A DNA stretch of 64,000 nucleotides. Origin: Mucilaginibacter lappiensis. Lineage in GTDB: Bacteria > Bacteroidota > Bacteroidia > Sphingobacteriales > Sphingobacteriaceae. A program made the translations under genes and the position numbers. A model generated the notes under the pieces. That model was not told the DNA's origin. It worked only from the letters and a program-made list of their open reading frames with translations, and did not search any database. This document shows positions 2,385-63,163 of the stretch, piece by piece. Numbering within the stretch: the first letter of the stretch is position 1; each line of letters opens with the position of its first letter. Location of the stretch: assembly GCF_900155965.1 (NCBI RefSeq), contig NZ_FTMG01000009.1:62001-126000 (forward strand), in the 5' to 3' direction.

Positions 2385-2507
2385 AGAGTCAAGATGTTAG
2401 AATCAAGAATCAAGAGGGAAACAAAAAATTGTTCACTTGTTATTGACATGTTTAAACTTTAGCTTTTTTATGTCTTGATTCTCAACTCTTGATTCCTGAC
2501 TCTCGAT
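2385..2507 (-). repeat. Intergenic word-array inverted repeat (AATCAAGA/AGAGTCAAG type)
   Basis: The left arm (2385-2416) repeats a word like AGTCAAGA or AATCAAGA; the right arm (2471-2507) carries the complement (TCTTGATT, CTCTTGATTC, TGACTCTCG). The roughly 55-base loop is AT-rich and has no ORF. The right arm runs into the 3' end of the next gene and supplies its last residues and stop codon (stop at 2482). Elements with other words recur across the window. Confidence 0.75.
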
Positions 2508-5074: not shown

Positions 5075-5166
5075 GTATCAAGTAGTTAGTATCAAGTATC
5101 AAGATTTTTGAAATCCTCATAAAACAATTGCAGCAGTCATGATACTTGATACTAACTACTTGATAC
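5075..5166. repeat. Word-array element with perfect 26-base inverted arms (GTATCAAGTA words)
   Basis: 5075-5100 and 5141-5166 are exact reverse complements over 26 bases, separated by a 40-base loop. Within each arm the word GTATCAAGTA/GTATCAAG repeats with a GTTA spacer. The left arm stops one base short of the start codon at 5073. The right arm contains the stop codon (TAG at 5152) and the last five codons (RVSSS) of the upstream gene. The exact symmetry suggests recent formation or active maintenance. Confidence 0.9.
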
Positions 5167-13638: not shown

Positions 13639-13733
13639 GAAGAATCAAGAGATGAGAGTCAAGAGCCAAGACAGATCGAAAAAAGCAGCTTGTTATTTTT
13701 TCATGATTCTTGACTCTCATCTCTTGATTCTTC
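13639..13733. repeat. Word-array element with perfect 26-base inverted arms (AATCAAGAG/GAGTCAAGA words)
   Basis: 13639-13664 and 13708-13733 are exact reverse complements over 26 bases. An imperfect continuation narrows the loop from 43 bases to about 20. The words AGAATCAAGAG and GAGAGTCAAGAG alternate. It sits exactly between the end of a GT2 gene (stop at 13736) and the MBOAT start (13632), occupying nearly the whole gap. Confidence 0.9.
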
Positions 13734-22522: not shown

Positions 22523-22648
22523 AAGAGTCAAGAGCTAAGAATTAAGAAGCAAGAAAATAACTAAATATGCGATAATGCCACAACAAAAAATATTCAGGTA
22601 CGGCTTTTTACTATTCTTTCTTGTTTCTAATTTCTTGACTCTTGATTC
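22523..22648. repeat. Word-array inverted repeat (AAGAGTCAAGA/AAGAAGCAAGAA words)
   Basis: Left arm 22523-22557 and right arm 22612-22648 pair imperfectly. The outer AAGAGTCAAGA block matches exactly and the inner part matches with small gaps. The loop of about 54 bases is AT-rich. It lies in the 237-base gap between the UpxY-like and AsnB-like genes. That gap also holds AT-rich sequence but no further gene. Confidence 0.7.
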
Positions 22649-28598: not shown

Positions 28599-29603
28599 AT
28601 GAAGATCGCTATAAATGGATTTGGCCGTATAGGTCGCATTTTTTTAAGAAATGTTTTAGCTAAACCCGGTATTGAGGTGGTAGCTATCAATGACCTTACG
28701 GATACGCAAACACTAGCCCACTTATTTAAATATGATTCCGTTCACCGCGGCTTTAAAGGCACGGTTGAGCATGATGCCAGCAACCTTTACATCAATGGGC
28801 ACCAAATAAAAGTATTGGCCGAGCGCGATCCACAGGCACTACCCTGGGGTAAACTGGATATTGACCTGGTGATAGAATCAACCGGGAAATTTACTTCCAG
28901 GCAAGGTGCCGAATTGCATTTAGCCGCTGGTGCCAAGCAGGTGATTATTTCGGCCCCATCCACTGATAAAAATGTACCAACTGTTGTATTGGGGGTAAAT
29001 GATGGCCTGGTCGATCTGCATTCACCCGTGTTATCTAACGCTTCATGCACCACCAATAATGTGGCGGCTATGGTGAAGATACTGGATGAGAACTGGGGAA
29101 TTATTGATGGCTACATCACTACCGTTCACTCCATGACCGGCGATCAAAACCTGCATGATGCTCCGCATAAAGACCTGCGCCGGGCAAGGGCGGCTTCGGC
29201 TTCTATTATACCTACTAGTACAGGTGCTGCCAAAGCTATCACCGCTATATTTCCGCATCTCGAAGGCCGTTTGGGTGGGGCTGGTATTCGCGTACCGGTA
29301 CTTAATGGTTCCTTAACAGATTTTACCTGCAGCCTTAAAAAGCAACCCACTATTGAAGAAATTAACCGGGCATTTAAACAGGCCGCCGATGGGCCTATGA
29401 AAAATGTACTGGAGTATACCGAAGATCCCATTGTATCAACCGATATACTGGATAATCCGCACAGCTGTATTTTTGACGCGCAGCTCACCTCCATTGTAGG
29501 GGGACTGGTGAAAGTGGTTGGCTGGTACGATAACGAAATGGGCTACAGCAGTCGCCTGGCCGATCTGGTGGAGGAAATAGCTAATTTAGAACCAAGAAGT
29601 TAG
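28599..29603 (+). CDS. gap: Type I glyceraldehyde-3-phosphate dehydrogenase
   Basis: 334 residues, normal length. The NAD-binding start MKIAINGFGRIGRIFLRNV, the catalytic cysteine in LSNASCTTNNVAAMVKIL (about residue 152), TVHSMTGDQNLHDAPHKDLR, and the C-terminal GWYDNEMGYSSRLADLVEEI are all conserved. It oxidises glyceraldehyde 3-phosphate to 1,3-bisphosphoglycerate; pgk, the next glycolytic step, lies 0.7 kb downstream. The last codons (EPRS) and the stop TAG at 29601 fall at the edge of a word-array repeat. Confidence 0.97.
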   Translation: MKIAINGFGRIGRIFLRNVLAKPGIEVVAINDLTDTQTLAHLFKYDSVHRGFKGTVEHDASNLYINGHQIKVLAERDPQALPWGKLDIDLVIESTGKFTSRQGAELHLAAGAKQVIISAPSTDKNVPTVVLGVNDGLVDLHSPVLSNASCTTNNVAAMVKILDENWGIIDGYITTVHSMTGDQNLHDAPHKDLRRARAASASIIPTSTGAAKAITAIFPHLEGRLGGAGIRVPVLNGSLTDFTCSLKKQPTIEEINRAFKQAADGPMKNVLEYTEDPIVSTDILDNPHSCIFDAQLTSIVGGLVKVVGWYDNEMGYSSRLADLVEEIANLEPRS

Positions 29604-29737
29604 AGTCAAGACATTAGAATCAAGAGCCAAGAATCAAGAAAATTGCTAACTAACAAATTAGAAAATGTTATGCATGCCAACAATAAATGATTTGCCTTTT
29701 TTTCTTGATTCTTGACTCTAATATCTTGACTCTTATA
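29599..29737. repeat. Word-array inverted repeat (AGAGTCAAGA/AATCAAGA words)
   Basis: Left arm 29599-29642 iterates AGAGTCAAGAC, TAGAATCAAGAG, CCAAGAATCAAGAA. Right arm 29697-29737 is its complement but lacks about one word (10 bases), so the arms pair with one bulge. The loop of about 55 bases has no ORF. The element separates gap from the acetyltransferase gene and carries the gap stop codon at its edge. Confidence 0.8.
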
Positions 29738-34153: not shown

Positions 34154-34240
34154 ATAGAGTCAAGAGCCAAGAGTCAAGAATCAAGAAAGGAGTGAAATTG
34201 ATCGATGACCATTTTTAACTCTTGATTCTCGATTCTTATT
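34154..34240. repeat. Word-array inverted repeat (AGAGTCAAGAG/AATCAAGAA words)
   Basis: Left arm 34154-34188 repeats AGTCAAGAGCCAAG, AGTCAAGAATCAAG. Right arm 34215-34240 is a shorter, diverged complement (AACTCTTGATTCTCGATTC). The loop is about 26 bases. It is located between two tandem GH18 genes. Confidence 0.7.
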
Positions 34241-36465: not shown

Positions 36466-36876
36466 TGTCGGTTTTTTAAAATTGGTTTATAAATTTTTAA
36501 TCGGTTTAAGCTCAAGAGCCGTGTTTATGCATAGGCGTATTGGTTTTATTGGTGGCATAAAGAAATAATTGGAGATAAATTAATAGGGCGGGTGGGTATT
36601 AAACGATTTAGCATTATAATATGTTTAGTTAAATAACTAAGAAATGTTAAATATTTTTTAACGTCCGGTAAATGAATGAGCATATATTAATGGGTTTATA
36701 TGCGTAATGATTTAATTGGTTTACAGCTATATGGACAAGCAATAAATAATAATTGCCTACAAACATTTAAAATTTAATTATATTAATATCTATATTATCG
36801 TCATATATGGTTTAATAGCATCATTTGGCGCTATAAGCCGTGGGATGTCACCAGGGAAAAAACTACATTTGCCATG
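36466..36876. other. AT-rich gap between divergent GH18 and thiD units
   Basis: About 410 bases without a convincing ORF. It should hold the promoter of the GH18 row on the minus strand and the promoter of the riboswitch transcript on the plus strand. I found no strong TAnnTTTG/TTG pair and no long inverted repeat. Confidence 0.5.
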
Positions 36877-36952
36877 GCTTTAGGGGTATTCTGTGAAGAA
36901 TTGAGATAAACCCTTTGAACCTGATCCGGCTGATACCGGTGTAGGGAAAAGT
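36877..36952 (+). promoter_or_regulatory. TPP riboswitch (THI box)
   Basis: Conserved aptamer blocks are present in order: TAGGGGTATTC (36881 on), TTGAGATAAACCCTTTGAACC (P2/P4 core, split here by one base from the standard CTGAGA), TGATCCGGCTGATACCGGTG, and GTAGGGAAAAG closing P1 against CTTTAGGGG. It senses thiamine pyrophosphate and should turn the downstream thiD off when the cofactor is abundant. A GCTCAG-TC-CTGAGC hairpin followed by a TTTTTT stretch at about 36975-37006 may be the terminator of the expression platform. Confidence 0.93.
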
Positions 36953-36974
36953 TGGAATTTATTTTATCCGCAGC

Positions 36975-39175: not shown

Positions 39176-39190
39176 AATTCTTTTAACTTT

Positions 39191-39518
39191 TGTCCCCTCA
39201 GGGTCTCTCGCAGATTTAAGTTAACCCATAAAATCTAAATATGAACTAAAGAGTCCCCGGAAGGCAAGTTCAGGATCAGGAGACTCCGCAGGAGTCCACC
39301 ATTTCTTTAATTTTATCTATAAACAGGAGGCCTCTCTGAGGCCGAATGGCAGGCCAGGTATACTAATTATAGTATAAAGCATTGCCGGCCCCAGCGGGGC
39401 CACGTGTTTATAGCCTAAAAGAGCACGTTCTTTGGCTCCGTAGGTGCCTCCCGTTGAAATTTCAAGTTGATCAATTTTGTGGGTTAACTTAAACTTTCAG
39501 GAGACCCCCGAGGGGACG
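39191..39518. repeat. Long composite hairpin element with 38-base imperfect terminal inverted repeats
   Basis: The outer arms 39191-39228 and 39480-39518 match as inverted repeats at about 30 of 38 positions (GTCCCCTC...TTTAAGTTAACCCA). Inside lie separate small hairpins: GACTCC-gca-GGAGTC at 39282-39296, GGCCTC-tct-GAGGCC at 39329-39343, TATACT-aattat-AGTATA at 39359-39376, and GGCCCC-agc-GGGGCC at 39387-39401. CTATAAACA (39318 region) also pairs with TGTTTATAG (39406 region), and AACAGGAGGC with GCCTCCCGTT. It carries no ORF. It could be a MITE-like insertion or a structured RNA. It fills most of the gap between the HTH gene and the CocE-type hydrolase. Confidence 0.75.
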
Positions 39519-39626
39519 AAAATCCTTGGGGAGGAACTACTGACTTCCGGCTCCAAACTTAAGACTCGCCACCAGTTGCCTCTTTTATTTTATTCAGGTA
39601 CATTTAGGGCTTGATTGACTAATTAA

Positions 39627-55184: not shown

Positions 55185-57285
55185 AACCAACATTCTGCTG
55201 CGGGTATATATCGCTTTCGGGCTGATATTGCTATTTGCTTTTGCTGTAGTAGTGCAGTTATGCCGTGTGCAATTTGTACAGGGTAAAAAATGGAAAGATA
55301 TGGCAGCCAGTCTTTCGGCCCAGTATCAAACGGTTGAAGCTGCCCGTGGTAATATTTTCTCTGCAGATGGTAGTCTTTTAGCTACTTCTGTTCCGGAGTA
55401 TGAGTTACACATGGATATGATGGCCGGCGGTATTGCCGAGGATAGCGTGTTTAATGACAACATTGATCAGCTGGCTATGAACCTGTCAAAAATGTATGGC
55501 GACAGAAGTGCCCGTGAATATTCCAGAATATTTCGCGATGCCCGCAAAGAGGGCTCGCGTTATCAGTTGTTAAGACGGCGGGTAAGCTATCAGGAATTAA
55601 AAAAAATCAAAGAGTTTCCGATTTTCAAAAAAAGGAAGACCAAAAACTGTTTGATTGTACTGCAGCAAAACAAGCGTATACGACCGTTTCACTCGTTGGC
55701 AGCCCGTACTATTGGATATAAAAATGAGAATGTAAAAAACGCTGTAGGCCTGGAGGGGGCCTATTCGTCTTATATCAATGGCGAGAATGGACGCAGGTTA
55801 ATGCAGCGCATTCCAGGTGGAACCTGGATGCCTGTTGATGATGACGAAGAGATAGCCGCTAAAGATGGTGCAGATATCATATCCACCATCAATGTGAATT
55901 TTCAGGATGTGGCCCAGGAGGCGTTGATGAAACAGTTGACCAAAAGTGAGGCTGATCATGGTTGTGTGGTGTTAATGGAAGTAGCTACCGGCGAGGTGCG
56001 GGCAATAGCCAACTTTACCCGTACCAAGGAGGGGGACTACGAAGAAAGGATGAACTACGCTATCAGTAATGCTATTGACCCGGGTTCAACCTTTAAGCTG
56101 GCATCGTACATGACCTTGCTCGATCAGCATAAGATTGATACCAGTTCTATAGTAAATGCCGAAGGTGGTAAATACAAATTCCCGAAAGGGCCAACCATTA
56201 CCGATACCGAGCATGATAACTATGAAATGAGTGTTAAACGGGCGTTCGAAGAATCATCAAACGTGGCGGCAGCTAAATTGGTGACCAGGTATTATCACGA
56301 TAACCCGTGGGAGTATATCAATAAATTGTACAGTTATCATTTAAACGAAAGGTTAGGGTTGCAAATCCCGGGCGAAGGTAAACCGGTGATCAAAAATCCG
56401 TCAAACCGCAGCTGGAACAAGAACTACACCTTGCCCGAAATGGCCTACGGTTATGAAATGAACTTGACGCCACTGCAAATGCTGGCTTTTTATAACTCGG
56501 TACCAAACAATGGTAAGCTCATTGCACCCATTTTTGTGCGCGAGATACGCCGCCTGGGTAATCCGATAGAGCAGTTCCAGGCCCGGGTTATTAATGAGCA
56601 TGTATGCTCGGACGTTACAGTAGGTAAATTGAAGGGAATGTTAGAGGGGGTGGTACTTAACGGTACTGGTAAAAATGTAATTAAAAACAAGCTTTATAGT
56701 GTAGCTGGTAAAACCGGTACGGCGCAAATAGCCGACGGACGTAAAGGTTATACTGCTCATAAAACATACCAGGCTTCTTTTTGCGGTTATTTCCCTGCCG
56801 ATCATCCTAAATATTCCATGATCGTGGTGATCAATAACCCAACAAAAGGTAATTATCTGGCGGCCCTGGTTGCGGGTCCGGTTTTCAGGGAAATAGCCGA
56901 TAGGGTGTATGCCAATGATATGGAGATAAACCAAAGTCCGGCTACAAATTTGGTGGGTAATACCAGTATGCCAAAAGTAAAGCAGGGTAATTTAAAAGCA
57001 TTAAAAAAGGTGTACACCAAATTGGGTGTAAAACCGCTGTACGCTTCGGCAAATGCCAACACAGGCGGCGTTGATACCAGCAACGGTATCCCCTTTGAAG
57101 AAGTAAGATATAAGAATGGCACCGTTCCGGGAGTAACCGGCATGGGCCTTAGTGATGCCCTGTATGTATTGGGTAACGCGGGTTATAAAGTAACGGTACG
57201 CGGCAGCGGCGTGGTAACCACACAATCGGTTACCGGTGGCAGCCTCATACCAAAAGGATCACGAATAACAATTGAATTACAATGA
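55174..57285 (+). CDS. ftsI: Penicillin-binding protein, FtsI family, with PASTA domain
   Basis: 703 residues. A membrane anchor near residues 8-28 (VYIAFGLILLFAFAVVV) is followed by a dimerisation domain. The transpeptidase domain has nucleophile DPGSTFKLASYMTLLD (SxxK near residue 305), ESSNVAAAKLV (SxN) and YSVAGKTGTAQIADGRKG (KTG near residue 510). One PASTA domain ends the protein (TVPGVTGMGLSDALYVLGNA, from about residue 648). It makes septal peptidoglycan crosslinks with FtsW. Confidence 0.96.
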   Translation: MGIRTNILLRVYIAFGLILLFAFAVVVQLCRVQFVQGKKWKDMAASLSAQYQTVEAARGNIFSADGSLLATSVPEYELHMDMMAGGIAEDSVFNDNIDQLAMNLSKMYGDRSAREYSRIFRDARKEGSRYQLLRRRVSYQELKKIKEFPIFKKRKTKNCLIVLQQNKRIRPFHSLAARTIGYKNENVKNAVGLEGAYSSYINGENGRRLMQRIPGGTWMPVDDDEEIAAKDGADIISTINVNFQDVAQEALMKQLTKSEADHGCVVLMEVATGEVRAIANFTRTKEGDYEERMNYAISNAIDPGSTFKLASYMTLLDQHKIDTSSIVNAEGGKYKFPKGPTITDTEHDNYEMSVKRAFEESSNVAAAKLVTRYYHDNPWEYINKLYSYHLNERLGLQIPGEGKPVIKNPSNRSWNKNYTLPEMAYGYEMNLTPLQMLAFYNSVPNNGKLIAPIFVREIRRLGNPIEQFQARVINEHVCSDVTVGKLKGMLEGVVLNGTGKNVIKNKLYSVAGKTGTAQIADGRKGYTAHKTYQASFCGYFPADHPKYSMIVVINNPTKGNYLAALVAGPVFREIADRVYANDMEINQSPATNLVGNTSMPKVKQGNLKALKKVYTKLGVKPLYASANANTGGVDTSNGIPFEEVRYKNGTVPGVTGMGLSDALYVLGNAGYKVTVRGSGVVTTQSVTGGSLIPKGSRITIELQ

Positions 57286-58742
57286 TGTATTTAAGTGATA
57301 TACTGGATGGATTGGCTTTTACTGAATTACAGGGAAGCGCTGATGTGGAAATTACGTCTGTAACCTTTGATTCGCGCAAAGTTGAGCCCGGTTCATTGTT
57401 TGTTGCTGTAAAAGGCACGCTGGTTGATGGTCATGACTATATTGATCAGGCTATTAAAAGCGGTGCTATAGCTATTATTTGTGAAGATCTGCCCGCGCGT
57501 ACCGTAGCTGAGGTGGACTTTCTGATGGTGGCCGATTCTGGTAAGGCATTGAGTATTGTTGCCGCCAATTTTTATGGACAGCCATCCGAAAAGCTTAAGC
57601 TGGTTGGTGTTACCGGTACCAATGGTAAAACTACAGTGGCTACTTTGCTGTACCAACTGTTTCGAGATTTGGGATATAAATGCGGTCTGTTATCAACTGT
57701 CGAAAACCAGGTCAATGGTACGGTAATTCCATCAACCCACACCACTCCCGATCCCATTGAGCTGAATAGCTTATTGGCAGAGATGGTGGAGCAGGGATGT
57801 GATTATTGCTTTATGGAAGTGAGTTCGCACGCCATAGCTCAGCACCGTATTGCCAACCTGGTGTTTTCGGGTGGGATATTTACCAATTTGACGCATGATC
57901 ATTTAGATTATCATAAAACTTTCGATAGTTATCTGAAAGCTAAAAAGGCATTTTTTGATGGCCTGCCAAAAACCGCCTTTGCGCTTACCAATAGCGATGA
58001 TAAAAATGGTAATGTGATGCTGCAGAACACCCAGGCGCATAAAAAAACCTACGGACTAAAAACTATGGCCGATTATAAGGCCCGTATCCTGGAAAATCAG
58101 TTTGAGGGCTTGCTGCTGCACATTGATAGTGAAGAGGTTTGGTTTAAAATGGTTGGCACATTTAACGCCTACAATTTGCTGGCGGTTTATGCCACTGCTA
58201 TGTTGCTCGATCAGGATAAAGCTAAAGTATTAACCAGCTTGAGTAAACTGACGGGTGCCGAAGGTCGCTTTGAATATATAGTAGCGCCTAATAAGGTAAT
58301 AGGCATAGTTGATTATGCCCACACGCCTGATGCTGTACAAAATGTACTGAGCACCATTCATGACATCCGTAAGGGTAACGAGAAAGTGATCACCGTAATT
58401 GGCTGCGGTGGCGATAGGGATAAAACGAAACGCCCGATCATGGCACGTGTAGCCAGCGAGTGGAGCGATAAGGTAATATTAACTGCCGATAATCCACGGA
58501 CGGAAGATCCGGGTCAGATCATTAAAGATATGGAGGAAGGGGTTGATCCGGCTTTCAAAAGACATGCGGTGAGCATTGTTGATCGTCGCGAAGCAATAAA
58601 AACAGCCTGTATGTTGGCCAATCCAGGTGATATTATACTGGTAGCCGGCAAAGGGCACGAGAAATACCAGGAAATAAATGGCGTGAAAAATCATTTTGAC
58701 GATATGGAGGAGTTGGAAGAGCAATTTAAGTTATTGTCATAG
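57282..58742 (+). CDS. murE: UDP-MurNAc-L-Ala-D-Glu:meso-diaminopimelate ligase
   Basis: 486 residues. The Mur ligase P-loop is VGVTGTNGKTTVATLLYQLF (about residue 109). The D-N-P-R motif in ILTADNPRTEDPGQIIKDME (about residue 405) marks the meso-diaminopimelate-specific enzymes rather than the lysine type. It adds the third residue of the peptide stem. Start overlaps ftsI by 4 bases. The stop TAG at 58740-58742 overlaps the left arm of the four-helix-bundle element. Confidence 0.97.
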   Translation: MMYLSDILDGLAFTELQGSADVEITSVTFDSRKVEPGSLFVAVKGTLVDGHDYIDQAIKSGAIAIICEDLPARTVAEVDFLMVADSGKALSIVAANFYGQPSEKLKLVGVTGTNGKTTVATLLYQLFRDLGYKCGLLSTVENQVNGTVIPSTHTTPDPIELNSLLAEMVEQGCDYCFMEVSSHAIAQHRIANLVFSGGIFTNLTHDHLDYHKTFDSYLKAKKAFFDGLPKTAFALTNSDDKNGNVMLQNTQAHKKTYGLKTMADYKARILENQFEGLLLHIDSEEVWFKMVGTFNAYNLLAVYATAMLLDQDKAKVLTSLSKLTGAEGRFEYIVAPNKVIGIVDYAHTPDAVQNVLSTIHDIRKGNEKVITVIGCGGDRDKTKRPIMARVASEWSDKVILTADNPRTEDPGQIIKDMEEGVDPAFKRHAVSIVDRREAIKTACMLANPGDIILVAGKGHEKYQEINGVKNHFDDMEELEEQFKLLS

Positions 58743-59243
58743 ATGTGCAGATTTCAGATGTGCAAATGTGCAGATGAGGAAGAAGATGAAAAAATGACTG
58801 GATTGAAGTAATATAAAATGGATGAAAAGCCTAATCTGATAGTTGACCTGACATTTAAGTTCTCGTTGAAGATAATAAGCTTTACAGAAAAGCTGGAAAC
58901 AGAAAGGAAATTTAATATGGCGAATCAGCTTTTTAGAAGTGGAACATCAATCGGAGCGAATATTTGTGAAGCACAGGGAGCACAGAGCAAGGCTGATTTT
59001 AAACATAAATGTAAAATAGCTTATAAAGAAGCCGAAGAAACAAGATACTGGTTAAGATTATGTCAACAAGCGGAAAGTTATCCATTTGAACAAGCAATGC
59101 TTGATGATATACAGTCAATAGTTAAAGTTTTAGGGAAGATAATTTCATCAACCAATTAATAAGTAACAAAAAAAATCAAAACATAAACCGCACATCTGCA
59201 TATCTGCACATTTGAAATCTGCACATCTGCACATCTGCACATT
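58741..59243 (+). mobile_element. Word-array inverted-repeat element carrying a four-helix-bundle gene, inserted between murE and mraY
   Basis: The left arm 58741-58776 and the right arm 59191-59243 are inverted complements built from TGCAGATG/GTGCAAATG words; AGATGTGCAGATTTC is shared exactly in inverted form, and the right arm has more word copies. Between the arms lies the 113-residue gene at 58818. The element fills the murE-mraY gap almost entirely. I see no transposase and no clear target-site duplication. It matches the architecture of the empty word-array elements elsewhere in the window, so I read it as a coding version of them. Confidence 0.7.
58818..59159 (+). CDS. Four-helix-bundle protein (S23/IVS-encoded type, Avd-like fold)
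   Basis: 113 residues, mostly helical: DLTFKFSLKIISFTEKLETE, then FNMANQLFRSGTSIGANICE, AQSKADFKHKCKIAYKEAEE, TRYWLRLCQQAESYPFEQ and LDDIQSIVKVLGKIISSTN. The S-I-G-A-N-I-x-E-A and the E-A-E-E-T-x-Y-W-L blocks are signature features of the family found inside 23S rRNA intervening sequences and related to Avd of diversity-generating retroelements. No reverse transcriptase or variable repeat is here. It lies inside inverted word-array arms, splitting murE from mraY. Confidence 0.9.
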   Translation: MDEKPNLIVDLTFKFSLKIISFTEKLETERKFNMANQLFRSGTSIGANICEAQGAQSKADFKHKCKIAYKEAEETRYWLRLCQQAESYPFEQAMLDDIQSIVKVLGKIISSTN

Positions 59244-59252
59244 GAAGAAGAG

Positions 59253-60494
59253 ATGTTATATTATTTATTTACATATCTAAGTAAAAACTACAGTATTCCG
59301 GGAGCGGGGGTATTTCAGTATATCACTTTCCGTACGGCAATGGCTGTAATAACATCATTGCTCATTACCACGGTATATGGCCGCAGACTGATCGATTATC
59401 TGCGTTTTAAACAAGTGGGCGAAACGGTACGGAACCTGGGTCTGGAAGGTCAGATGCAAAAATCAGGTACGCCTACTATGGGTGGTATCATTATTTTATT
59501 GGGTATCCTGATCCCTACGTTGCTGTTTGCTAAACTGAGTAACGTATATATTATCCTGATGCTGATCACCACTGTGTGGCTGGGCGCTATTGGTTTTCTG
59601 GACGATTATATCAAAGTATTCAGAAAGAATAAAGAAGGATTGGCAGGCAGGTTTAAGATCATCGGTCAGGTAGGGCTTTCGCTGATCATCGGTTGGACAA
59701 TGTATTTCAATACCGATATCGTGATCAGGCAGGAAGTAAAACCGCCTGTGAAGGTTGATGCCCCGGTGGAGTTCCATATGAAGAGGGATGTGCCGGTTTA
59801 TACACAGGATGTGCGGTCGACAAAAACCACGATGCCTTTTTATAAAAACAATGAGTTTGACTACGCCAAGGTATTAAAATTCCTGGGTCCTGGTTATGAG
59901 CAATACGGACTGGTCGTGTTCCTGTTTTTTGTAATACTGATTATCACATTTATATCAAACGGAGCCAATATTACCGATGGTATCGACGGATTGGCCACCG
60001 GCACATCGGCTATTATCGGCATTACGCTGGCTATACTGGCTTACGTATCTGGTAACATTGCCATGGCCGATTACCTGAACATTATGTTTTTACCTAACTC
60101 TGGCGAGCTGGTAATATTTGCCGGTGCATTTGTGGGTGCTTGTGTAGGCTTTTTATGGTACAACTCGTATCCCGCACAGGTGTTCATGGGCGATACCGGA
60201 AGTTTAGCCATTGGTGGTATCATTGCTGTTTTTGCCATTGTGATACGCAAAGAATTATTGCTCCCGGTATTATGCGGCGTATTCCTGATCGAAAACATAT
60301 CGGTGATTATGCAGGTAGGCTGGTTCAAATACACCAAGAAAAGATCGGGCGAGGGCAGGCGGATATTTTTAATGGCGCCGCTGCATCACCATTATCAGAA
60401 AAAAGGATTCCATGAAGCCAAAATCGTTACGCGCTTCTGGATCATTGGTATCATGCTGGCTATTATAACGATTATAACATTAAAGCTGAGATAG
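59253..60494 (+). CDS. mraY: Phospho-MurNAc-pentapeptide translocase
   Basis: 413 residues and ten helices, longer than many MraY because of an insert at about residues 170-215 ([20 protein letters not shown]). Motifs: [20 protein letters not shown] (DDY), [33 protein letters not shown] and [20 protein letters not shown] (HHH). It moves phospho-MurNAc-pentapeptide from UDP to undecaprenyl phosphate to form lipid I. The start codon follows the repeat element by nine bases, so its translation no longer couples to murE. Confidence 0.96.
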
Positions 60495-60594: not shown

Positions 60595-61923
60595 ATGTTA
60601 GCCATCCTTGGCGCTGGCGAAAGCGGTGTGGGTGCGGCATACCTTGCCCAGCAGCAGGGTTATGATGTTTTTGTTTCGGATTTTGGCGCTATTGCCGATA
60701 ACTATAAAAAACAACTGCAGGATTGGAATATCCGTTTTGAGGAAAATCAACATACCGAGGCTGAAATACTGAACGCGGTTGAAGTGATCAAAAGTCCGGG
60801 GATCCCAGAAAAAGCTCCTATTGTTAAAAAGCTGCGTGAAAAAGGCATTCCTGTTATTTCTGAAATAGAATTTGCAGGCAGGTATTGCCATGCAAAGATC
60901 ATCGGAATCACGGGCTCAAACGGGAAAACTACTACCACCAGCCTAACCTACCATATCCTTAAAAACGCGGGATTAAATGTGGGTTTGGCGGGTAACATTG
61001 GTAAAAGCTTTGCTTACCAGGTAGCTACTGAAAAATTTGAATATTATGTGTTGGAGCTAAGCAGCTTTATGCTGGATGATATGTACCGGTTTAAGGTTGA
61101 CATTGCTGTTTTGCTCAATATTACGCCTGATCATTTAGACAGGTACGATTACAAGCTGGAAAACTACGCGGCATCAAAATTCCGTGTTACGCAGAATCAA
61201 ACAACGGCTGATTATTTTATTTACTGCGCCGATGATCCGGAAACCATCAAAGGGATGACCAGGCGTATGTTTGAAGCACAGCAATTACCCTTTTCAATTG
61301 AAACTAAGATTAAACCGGGAGCATATCTCGAAAACGACAATATTGTCATCAACACACAACAAGAACATTTTCAAATGTCAATTAAAGAATTAGCCCTGCA
61401 GGGCAAGCACAACATTTACAACTCCATGGCATCAGGTATTGTATCAAAGGTGTTGGAGCTGCGCAACGAAACGATGAGAGAGAGCATGGGCAACTTTAAA
61501 AACATCGAGCACAGGCTGGAGTCGGTTGGCAAAATATCGGGCATTAGTTTTATTAATGACTCTAAAGCCACCAACGTTAACTCAACCTGGTATGCGCTGG
61601 AAAGCATGACTACTGATGTGGTATTGATCCTGGGTGGTGTTGACAAAGGGAACGACTACAGTATGTTGAAACAGCTGGTAAAGCAAAAAGTAAAAGCCAT
61701 TGTGTGTTTAGGCAAGGACAACAAGCGTATCCATGATGCCTTTGAAGATGATGTGGAAGTGATCGTAAATACAGGTTCGGCGCAGGAAGCAGCACAAGTG
61801 GCATTTCACCTGGCCGAAAAAGGCGATACCGTATTGTTGTCGCCAGCTTGCGCCAGTTTTGATCTGTTTAAAAATTATGAAGATCGCGGCAATCAATTTA
61901 AAGCCGCGGTAAGGGAATTGTAG
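60595..61923 (+). CDS. murD: UDP-N-acetylmuramoyl-L-alanine:D-glutamate ligase
   Basis: The longest frame begins at 60547, but its first 16 residues are a translated repeat array. The family start is the ATG at 60595 (MLAILGAGESGVGAAYLAQQ), which I choose (442 residues). Motifs: IIGITGSNGKTTTTSLTYHI (P-loop, about residue 105), ISFINDSKATNVNSTWYALE and LLSPACASFDLFKNYEDRGN. It adds D-glutamate to the stem peptide. Confidence 0.96.
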   Translation: MLAILGAGESGVGAAYLAQQQGYDVFVSDFGAIADNYKKQLQDWNIRFEENQHTEAEILNAVEVIKSPGIPEKAPIVKKLREKGIPVISEIEFAGRYCHAKIIGITGSNGKTTTTSLTYHILKNAGLNVGLAGNIGKSFAYQVATEKFEYYVLELSSFMLDDMYRFKVDIAVLLNITPDHLDRYDYKLENYAASKFRVTQNQTTADYFIYCADDPETIKGMTRRMFEAQQLPFSIETKIKPGAYLENDNIVINTQQEHFQMSIKELALQGKHNIYNSMASGIVSKVLELRNETMRESMGNFKNIEHRLESVGKISGISFINDSKATNVNSTWYALESMTTDVVLILGGVDKGNDYSMLKQLVKQKVKAIVCLGKDNKRIHDAFEDDVEVIVNTGSAQEAAQVAFHLAEKGDTVLLSPACASFDLFKNYEDRGNQFKAAVREL

Positions 61924-61930
61924 GTAAAGA

Positions 61931-61998
61931 GGTCCATAGTCTATGGTCGATAGTCAATGGAAAAAGAAAATAAGATCTATCGACCATGGTCCATGGAC
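61931..61998. repeat. Word-array inverted repeat (GGTCCATAGTC words)
   Basis: Left arm 61931-61954 and right arm 61975-61998 pair at about 19 of 24 positions. The words GTCCATAG, CTATGGTCGATAG and TCCATGGAC are themselves partly palindromic. The array begins eight bases after the murD stop and encodes the false N-terminal extension of the long ftsW frame. Confidence 0.75.
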
Positions 61999-62017: not shown

Positions 62018-63163
62018 ATGCACAGGATACTCAGTAATACAAAAGGCGACCGCTGGATATGGCTTATAGTCATATTGCTTTCTGTTATATCCCTGTTGGC
62101 GGTATACAGTTCAACCGGTACGCTGGCTTATAAGCGTGGCGTTGGGGTCGAGTCGATCCTGATGAAACACCTGGCTATGGTGGTAGGCGGTATCGCACTG
62201 ATGTATATTTCCCATAAGCTCGACTATCGATATTACGCAGGTATCTCCAAGGTCATGATGATCGTGACTATACCTTTGTTATTATACACATTGGTATTTG
62301 GTAGTCACATCAACAACGCCAGCCGCTGGATCAATATCCCGGTAATTGGCTTGAGTTTCCAGACATCCGATTTGGCTAAACTGGCTTTGATCACTTACCT
62401 GGCACGTACATTATCGCGCAAGCAGGAAAATATTAAGGATGTTAAAGAATCCTTCCTGCCCATAATGGGTTCTGTTTGCCTGGTGTTTATACTCATCGCG
62501 CTGGCCAACTTGTCAACCGCGCTAATGTTGTTTGGGGTTAGTATTTTACTGTTGATCATTGGTCGTATCAGTATTAAACAAATAGCGGTGGTGTGTGTAG
62601 CCGGATTTATATTGTTAATGGGCGTTTTGTTCTTAGGGCCGCGCCGTCACATGTACGCTACTCGTGTAAGTACATTCCTGCATCCTGAGCAAGCTAAGCC
62701 CGATAAATCGTTCCAGTCTGACCATGCTAAAATAGCTATCGCCAGCGGCGGGATATTTGGCAAAGGTCCGGGTAACAGTACCGAAAGAAATTATCTGCCA
62801 GAGTCCTACTCCGACGAAATATACGCCATTATTATTGAGGAGTATGGACTTGTAGGCGGGTTTGCCTTAATTGGCATTTACCTGTTTTTACTATACAGGT
62901 GTATAAAAATTGTGACGAAGGCCCCCAAGGCGTTTGGGGCCTTGCTGGCTTGTGGTTTAAGTTTCAGTTTAACCATACAGGCGTTTGCTAATATGGCGGT
63001 GGCAGTGGGTTTAGGTCCAGTAACAGGTGTCCCGCTACCATTTGTGAGTATGGGGGGGACGTCGATATTATTTACCAGTGTGGCGTTTGGTATCATATTA
63101 TCGGTAAGCCGTGATATTGAAGAACCCAAAAAAGTAGTGGTAGGAGAGATCAGAACGGCGTGA
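62018..63163 (+). CDS. ftsW: Division-specific SEDS glycosyltransferase FtsW
   Basis: A longer frame from 61943 reads through the repeat array; the family start is the ATG at 62018 (MHRILSNTKGDRWIWLIVIL, 381 residues). About ten helices. Conserved loops: NNASRWINIPVIGLSFQTSD, NLSTALMLFGVSILLL, and GKGPGNSTERNYLPESYSDE with a following IYAIIIEEYGLVGGF. It polymerises septal glycan from lipid II with the FtsI encoded upstream. Confidence 0.95.
   Translation: MHRILSNTKGDRWIWLIVILLSVISLLAVYSSTGTLAYKRGVGVESILMKHLAMVVGGIALMYISHKLDYRYYAGISKVMMIVTIPLLLYTLVFGSHINNASRWINIPVIGLSFQTSDLAKLALITYLARTLSRKQENIKDVKESFLPIMGSVCLVFILIALANLSTALMLFGVSILLLIIGRISIKQIAVVCVAGFILLMGVLFLGPRRHMYATRVSTFLHPEQAKPDKSFQSDHAKIAIASGGIFGKGPGNSTERNYLPESYSDEIYAIIIEEYGLVGGFALIGIYLFLLYRCIKIVTKAPKAFGALLACGLSFSLTIQAFANMAVAVGLGPVTGVPLPFVSMGGTSILFTSVAFGIILSVSRDIEEPKKVVVGEIRTA

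Follow-up and report, generated by a model that had tools for sequence, protein, structure and literature searches.

Why does a gene for a small four-helix-bundle protein, enclosed by inverted arrays of short words, lie between two open reading frames that are putatively murE and mraY? The locus is part of a 64,000-nucleotide stretch of the Mucilaginibacter lappiensis genome, called the window throughout. The list of open reading frames places the putative murE at 57282..58742 and the putative mraY at 59253..60494, both on the + strand. The murE stop codon abuts a left arm (58741..58776, + strand) composed of TGTGCAGA-type words, and the same word occurs at the murE–mraY junction in relatives. 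Next comes a gene (58818..59159, + strand) for a 113-residue four-helix-bundle protein of the 23S rRNA IVP family, assigned from profiles, an AlphaFold (AF2) model and PDB folds, followed by a right arm (59193..59243, − strand), an inverted TGTGCAGA word array. The element occupies the junction from the murE stop to 9 nt short of the mraY start.

The core arms, 58741–58776 and 59193–59228, span 36 nt and are 92% complementary, with more words up to position 59243. Such an arrangement, a gene enclosed by inverted word arrays at murE–mraY, had been proposed in the first-pass annotation of this DNA, and it is confirmed: the arm pair scores 28.5, whereas 1000 random placements in the window have their 99th percentile at 12.5. 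Their maximum was also 28.5, which may be the murE–mraY element itself. Chance as the origin of the arms was rejected by the random placements and by shuffles. RNA spanning 58736–59252 folds with the two arms paired (z −4.9).

Two other identities were tried for the locus and rejected. At gathering scores, the window gave a single known RNA family, a TPP riboswitch situated elsewhere (36872–36964; RF00059, 74.5 bits). PADLOC returned no match for three proteins tried as defence genes.

Fold and family of the encoded protein

The window protein scores 84.1 bits against PF05635 (cut-off 33.8) and 97.1 bits against TIGR02436 (cut-off 24). Its AF2 model is a four-helix bundle with a pLDDT of 93.8. 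The nearest structure match is 2rld (E 2e-6), followed by 2gsc (E 6e-3) and, more weakly (E 0.07 and above), by the Avd protein of diversity-generating retroelements (DGR). A profile search against the PDB gave strong matches to 2gsc and 2rld only, with five chains each; the next two were designed proteins at E ~0.001. Two relatives matched phrog_3206 (Avd of DGR), to which the window protein had no match at E 0.01. The Xanthomonas protein is described as a toroidal homopentamer of four-helix bundles (PMC4990558), and according to that paper the proteins of the S23p family have no known function. At murE–mraY, the median dN/dS was 0.053 over the 10 unsaturated of 55 ortholog pairs, a rough estimate because dS exceeds 1.

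Inverted arms around the gene family

The window's genome carries 11 such genes, each, by eye, with inverted arms and its own word; two of them, L003 and L007, have arm scores of just 11.0 and 12.5. The PF05635 family is present in 60 of 61 genomes of the genus. The expectation that inverted arrays accompany homologues of the gene beyond what random placements produce was borne out in genus, family, phylum and multi-phylum samples alike. In the genus, 112 of the 122 best-scoring loci listed have inverted arms above 12.5, the 99th percentile of random placements, and the remaining ten, at or below this value, include truncated genes. These 122 loci (L001–L040, 60 of 80 further places, and L171–L192) are the top of match lists and a non-random sample. 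A cross-pair arm control was set aside for its overlapping or word-sharing loci (99th percentile 98.8).

The arms are periodic at 7 nt. Across the 115 genus loci with a score above 12, autocorrelation reached 0.60, 0.56 and 0.53 at lags 7, 14 and 21 and stood at ~0.25 at most other lags, the best lag being 7 in 94 loci and 8 in 19. G outnumbers C in the 5′ arm of 105 of these 115 loci.

Among 110 classified genus loci, 98 lie in sense between co-directional frames, 7 between convergent and 5 between divergent ones, with no antisense case. The 39 loci from outside the genus comprise 28 sense, 4 convergent, 3 divergent and 4 antisense ones. The upstream stop codon falls within 12 nt of the left-arm start in 95 of 107 loci, and the next in-frame start lies −9 to 25 nt from the right-arm end in 87 of 97. 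Given this sense placement between stop and start, the element would be transcribed and its neighbours left unbroken. The bias may stem from selection for expression or from an RNA step in mobility, and the data do not decide between the two.

Beyond the genus, PF05635 was found in 116 of the 148 genomes of a phylum sample. Arm scores above 12.5 were obtained at 23 of 28 loci in a family-level sample (one of the 23, L230, is from the host genus) and at 15 of 28 in a phylum-level sample, where several of the rest have shorter heptads by eye. In the multi-phylum set, inverted flanks were significant at p ≤0.01 in 60 of 77 homologues when each was compared with 100 shuffled versions of its flanks, and a 7- or 8-nt period is present in 55 of the 60; a few of the 60 (L373, L401, L404) have long or distant alignments with no clear word, and 17 of the 77 lack significant arms. 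This set, from a pattern-based scan of named genomes, comprises the best 80 loci of the matches listed, of which 77 were testable (the flanks of the other three were too short). The search pattern required a conserved core, which places divergent members outside the sample, and phylum labels follow record titles. By group, the inverted-flank test was passed at 8 of 9 loci from Alphaproteobacteria, 9 of 11 from Bacillota and 6 of 7 from planctomycetes. G-rich heptads occur in all seven cyanobacterial loci tested. Cyanobacterial STRR repeats are already known and may correspond to arms of the kind described here.

Arm words follow protein clades

On a tree of 116 of the 122 genus proteins (those of at least 95 aa), word labels mostly match protein clades. 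The labels come from a hand-made motif list, under which several loci are ‘other’ and a few (L116, L133 and L134) are doubtful. The same combination of clade and word is found at different junctions, and single junctions can host several word-plus-clade types: two at aguB–aguA (AGTCCGAAAG and GTCCATAG elements) and three at argC–argD (AAGTTGAA, AGCTGAAAG and GGTTAAAGG elements), the neighbouring genes having been named for selected loci.

A pair test that uses no word labels, and whose automatic junction clusters may in places be wrongly split or merged, bears on the same relation. Among locus pairs drawn from different junctions, words matched in a fraction of 0.01–0.06 below 60% protein identity, 0.29 at 60–70%, 0.71 at 70–80% and 0.87 above 80%. 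Word and protein similarity across junctions are correlated at 0.45 (permutation maximum 0.08), and the nearest protein at another junction has the same word for 58 of 111 loci, where 4.3 are expected. The two arms of one locus resemble each other more than they resemble the arms of other species at the same junction (57/88, p 2.7e-6). The first-pass annotation had supposed that the arm sequence is free to change; this did not hold, as word and protein clade are passed on together. A word–protein link is expected for any transposon ends and is no proof of binding.

Filled, empty and re-used junctions

Junction tables cover 59 of the 61 genus genomes, those with full-length mraY matches; two with only weak mraY-like matches were left out. 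The empty sites anticipated for murE–mraY were found among these relatives, alongside filled, arms-only and one-sided ones. By gap length, the gene is present in 12 of the 59 genomes, in 11 of which its frame stays open for at least 100 aa. Both arms occur without the gene in 7, one-sided arm words in 4 and a single word in 2. The junction is free of the word in 34 genomes, in five of which the two genes abut or overlap, leaving no spacer; some of the word-free junctions carry arrays of other words, as judged by eye. G022, whose mraY is 98% identical to that of the window's genome, keeps the right arm together with an apparent 3′ end of the gene. Such arms-only and partial sites show that a gene-free array at murE–mraY can be what is left of a gene-carrying copy.

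Among relatives, the words at this junction vary in number and order, and many elements at one junction appear to be vertically inherited. At the junction of L010, the gene and left arm are gone in G022, and G042 has a different family member with different arms. No target-site duplication was recognised between the relatives compared, which are highly diverged at these junctions, and genome comparisons revealed no transposition event.

Two further arrangements were seen at such sites. A GTCATTGCGAGG-like inverted repeat with a CCTCGCAATGAC-like partner occurs at the same intergenic sites (L286, L297, L298 and L299) in relatives that lack the heptad element or have lost part of it. At L079 (G033, murE–mraY), a unit of ~60 nt with right-arm words is present in several tandem copies, interrupted by an N run.

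Gene-free arrays in the window and the genus

The window also holds arrays without a gene, none with an assigned strand. Six of these had been likened to the murE–mraY arms in the first pass. All six are present and share the build of those arms, but the words differ, five being GAGTCAAGAATCAAG-like and one GTATCAAG. Array reading gave a GAGTCAAGAATCAAG-like word at 2386..2495 and a GAATCAAGA-like word at 13639..13733. Arrays with GAGTCAAGA-like words lie at 22525..22648 (with no counterpart seen there in G052 or G056), at 29602..29733 (the same word, rearranged, in G022) and at 34169..34237 (the same word in G022, with a loop that is not alignable by eye). The remaining one, a GTATCAAG hairpin of ~92 bp at 5075..5166, folds as DNA with a z of −10.8 and has many relatives, dispersed as near-copies, in the genome. 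A seventh array, absent from the first-pass annotation, consists of the GTCCATAG word at 61932..61998, just past the end, at 61923, of an open reading frame. Because this array encloses 61943, the start listed for the following frame, that frame probably begins at 62018, with an in-frame ATG. Between G000 and G022, one gene-free array has a different loop.

We read 13 more relatives of the GTATCAAG hairpin from G000 and 7 from G022. By eye, the copies have common sharp ends, AGTATCAAGTAG...CTACTTGATACT, and a partly common loop. The middle word is altered on both sides together in 17 of the 20 two-armed copies (again by eye), a pattern that may reflect two subfamilies rather than repeated compensation. 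A gene-carrying locus, L118, has the same ends with an ORF in between, and at L170 an apparent gene-free hairpin stands next to the gene.

The number of GTATCAAG arrays is tied to the cognate gene. Of 18 genomes with a cognate gene or its relic (at least 60% identity, or a fragment), 15 gave at least 10 array matches, versus 8 of 43 without (Fisher p 3e-6); as scoring was limited to few candidates in each genome, the match counts are lower bounds. The window's genome is one of the eight: it has 28 GTATCAAG matches, yet no protein above 47% identity, and for these eight genomes one has to suppose that the gene was lost once the arrays had spread. In G036, which lacks the family altogether, there are 7 matches. 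A small and noisy scan of array density showed no split by gene presence, with 6 hits in G089 (no gene), 0 in G020 (8 genes), 2 in G117 (5 genes) and 0 in both G036 and G111 (no gene). The proposal that gene-free arrays are non-coding relatives of the gene-carrying element gains support for GTATCAAG, where dispersed gene-free copies share the flanking repeats of the gene as in RAYT/REPIN systems, and at murE–mraY from arms that lack the gene. For the window's TGTGCAGA word, gene-free relatives were sought at the murE–mraY junction alone.

Inverted repeats of other kinds are present as well. A non-heptad pair, ~240 nt apart, is similar at window 39188–39521 and at L101 7175–7498. In the same genome, the inverted flanks of the Y1_Tnp genes L331–L334 are long and non-heptad, which is what a RAYT-REP arrangement would lead one to expect.

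A mobile hairpin element as the probable explanation

We consider it probable that the murE–mraY feature is a mobile hairpin element with an arm-matched four-helix-bundle protein and non-autonomous gene-free hairpins, working in the manner of RAYT/REPIN and akin to the 23S rRNA intervening sequence (IVS). Sequence comparisons support a unit in which arms and gene are inherited together, with sites gained, lost and re-used and gene-free relatives of at least one word family dispersed. From these we infer movement, recognition of the arms by the protein, action in trans, the reading of a heptad by each subunit and the source of catalysis. The murE–mraY feature would be a gene-carrying copy, its ends being inverted heptad arrays around one S23/Avd-type four-helix-bundle gene, and the gene-free heptad hairpins would be its non-autonomous relatives. 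The protein, a pentamer in solved relatives, would bind the 5′ arm strand, in RNA or single-stranded DNA form, at its repeated G-bearing heptads, and each protein subunit might take one heptad. Both its own hairpin and gene-free ones would thereby be tagged, in trans, to be copied or inserted where one co-transcribed gene stops and the next starts, with catalysis supplied by the host or by other enzymes.

Four other explanations were weighed. The arms might serve only for RNase III excision of an IVS-like insert from the operon mRNA, with a protein unrelated to arms or mobility. This would fit the pairing of the arms in the RNA fold, the sense orientation between operon genes and the Coxiella IVS, which combines terminal inverted repeats, an S23p ORF, tandem heptamers and RNase III excision (PMC4990558). 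It leaves unexplained, however, why words follow the protein clade across junctions and why array number is tied to the cognate gene, and we regard it as unlikely. Growth of the hairpins in place, by slippage or template switching, with the gene a passenger that happens to be in the loop, would account for the variable word number and order within one junction and for the greater likeness of a locus's own two arms. Dispersed near-copies of arms plus loop argue against it, as does the recurrence of one word with one protein clade at different junctions, making in-place growth very improbable.

A Y1/RAYT transposase that moves the arrays, with the four-helix-bundle gene as cargo, draws on seven Y1_Tnp matches in the genome. 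The best inverted flanks of six Y1 loci that we read lack a heptad period, though (period-7 score 0.17–0.32), and the words track the four-helix-bundle protein; we give this explanation very little credence. Similarly slight is the chance that the feature acts as a regulatory attenuator, with its sensor encoded in the operon, and is maintained because it benefits the host. The purifying selection seen at murE–mraY and the sites beside core metabolic genes would be as expected for an attenuator, but the 34 murE–mraY junctions without trace of the word and the presence of closely related proteins at different junctions would not.

Relation to known systems

RAYT/REPIN systems consist of one gene flanked by inverted repeats, plus dispersed gene-free palindromes of the same sequence family. 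Window-type elements likewise pair a flanked gene with dispersed gene-free palindromes. They differ in that the ORF encodes a four-helix bundle and no Y1 (HUH) tyrosine transposase, and in that the ends are heptad arrays of variable word and order.

The 23S rRNA IVS with an S23p ORF shares the protein family and has its ORF within a terminal inverted repeat (PMC4990558), and the window element likewise has terminal inverted repeats around an S23p-family ORF. It is not in a 23S rRNA gene, as it sits between two protein genes and the window gave no rRNA match at gathering scores. Unlike the IVS, window-type elements lie at stop/start junctions of protein genes, in several copies and words per genome, and have dispersed gene-free relatives. 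The Coxiella IVS has tandem heptamers, GACAGAT, ahead of its ORF, and the results of its authors suggest that the S23p protein is not made in vivo (PMC4990558). DGR Avd proteins (4dwl, 8ub7; PMC10053308) have a similar fold, with weak E values of 0.07–0.2 at probabilities of 0.99–1.00. In contrast to a DGR, the stretch between murE and mraY comprises arm, ORF and arm only, with neither a reverse transcriptase nor a template/variable repeat (TR/VR) pair.

Intergenic heptads have also been described elsewhere, as GGGAATC in Xanthomonas and GGGGA(C/T)T in Nostoc (PMC4692102) and as TAACTGA in Beggiatoaceae (PMC4679880). Inverted GGGAATC pairs number 70 and 75 in two Xanthomonas genomes (PMC4692102). 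These heptamers differ from ours in how they are interpreted, the two papers treating them as quadruplexes or regulatory sites (PMC4692102, PMC4679880). An association with mobile elements was generally not found in the Xanthomonas work (PMC4692102), and the term ‘four helix’ appears in neither PMC4692102 nor PMC4679880. Among open-licence PMC papers matching our search terms, we found no link of the PF05635 family to heptad-armed mobile elements outside rRNA.

A broader reading is conceivable, and we offer it tentatively, as something we would sooner doubt than assume. PF05635 proteins might be the specificity factor of a bacteria-wide mobile class, the ends of which would be set by period and count (about five G-bearing heptads per arm, one per subunit of a ring-shaped pentamer), with the word co-evolving with the protein. 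The rRNA IVS, cyanobacterial heptanucleotide repeats, Xanthomonas GGGAATC and perhaps the TAACTGA repeats would then be members or leftovers of this class. The link between PF05635 proteins and heptad hairpins gives these proteins a candidate function, word-specific arm binding. It likewise provides a candidate cause for bacterial heptamer repeats to which no mobile source had been assigned, and sets rRNA intervening sequences in a wider frame, and word–protein pairs could be natural experiments on how a small ring protein reads a repeat array.

Number of heptads per arm

Runs of G at 7-nt spacing peak at five per arm across 156 of 178 loci: 64 left arms have five, 11 four and 29 six, and among right arms 69 have five, 19 four and 27 six. 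Allowing a spacing of 7 or 8 blunts the peak (46 left arms with five, 43 with six), chains of A and T likewise centre on four to six, and in the multi-phylum set (59 of 77 loci) the G count is broader, with a left-arm mode of six when 8 is allowed. Because the peak blurs, A and T chains behave alike and the multi-phylum set is broader, the agreement of five heptads with the number of subunits in the pentamer is suggestive only, and arm length alone may explain it. A preference for four heptamer units is described in Xanthomonas and Nostoc (PMC4692102). Five residues of the window protein, Q, R, S, N and E at positions 37, 40, 44, 48 and 74, do not vary among 36 diverse members of the family and could form a binding or active site.
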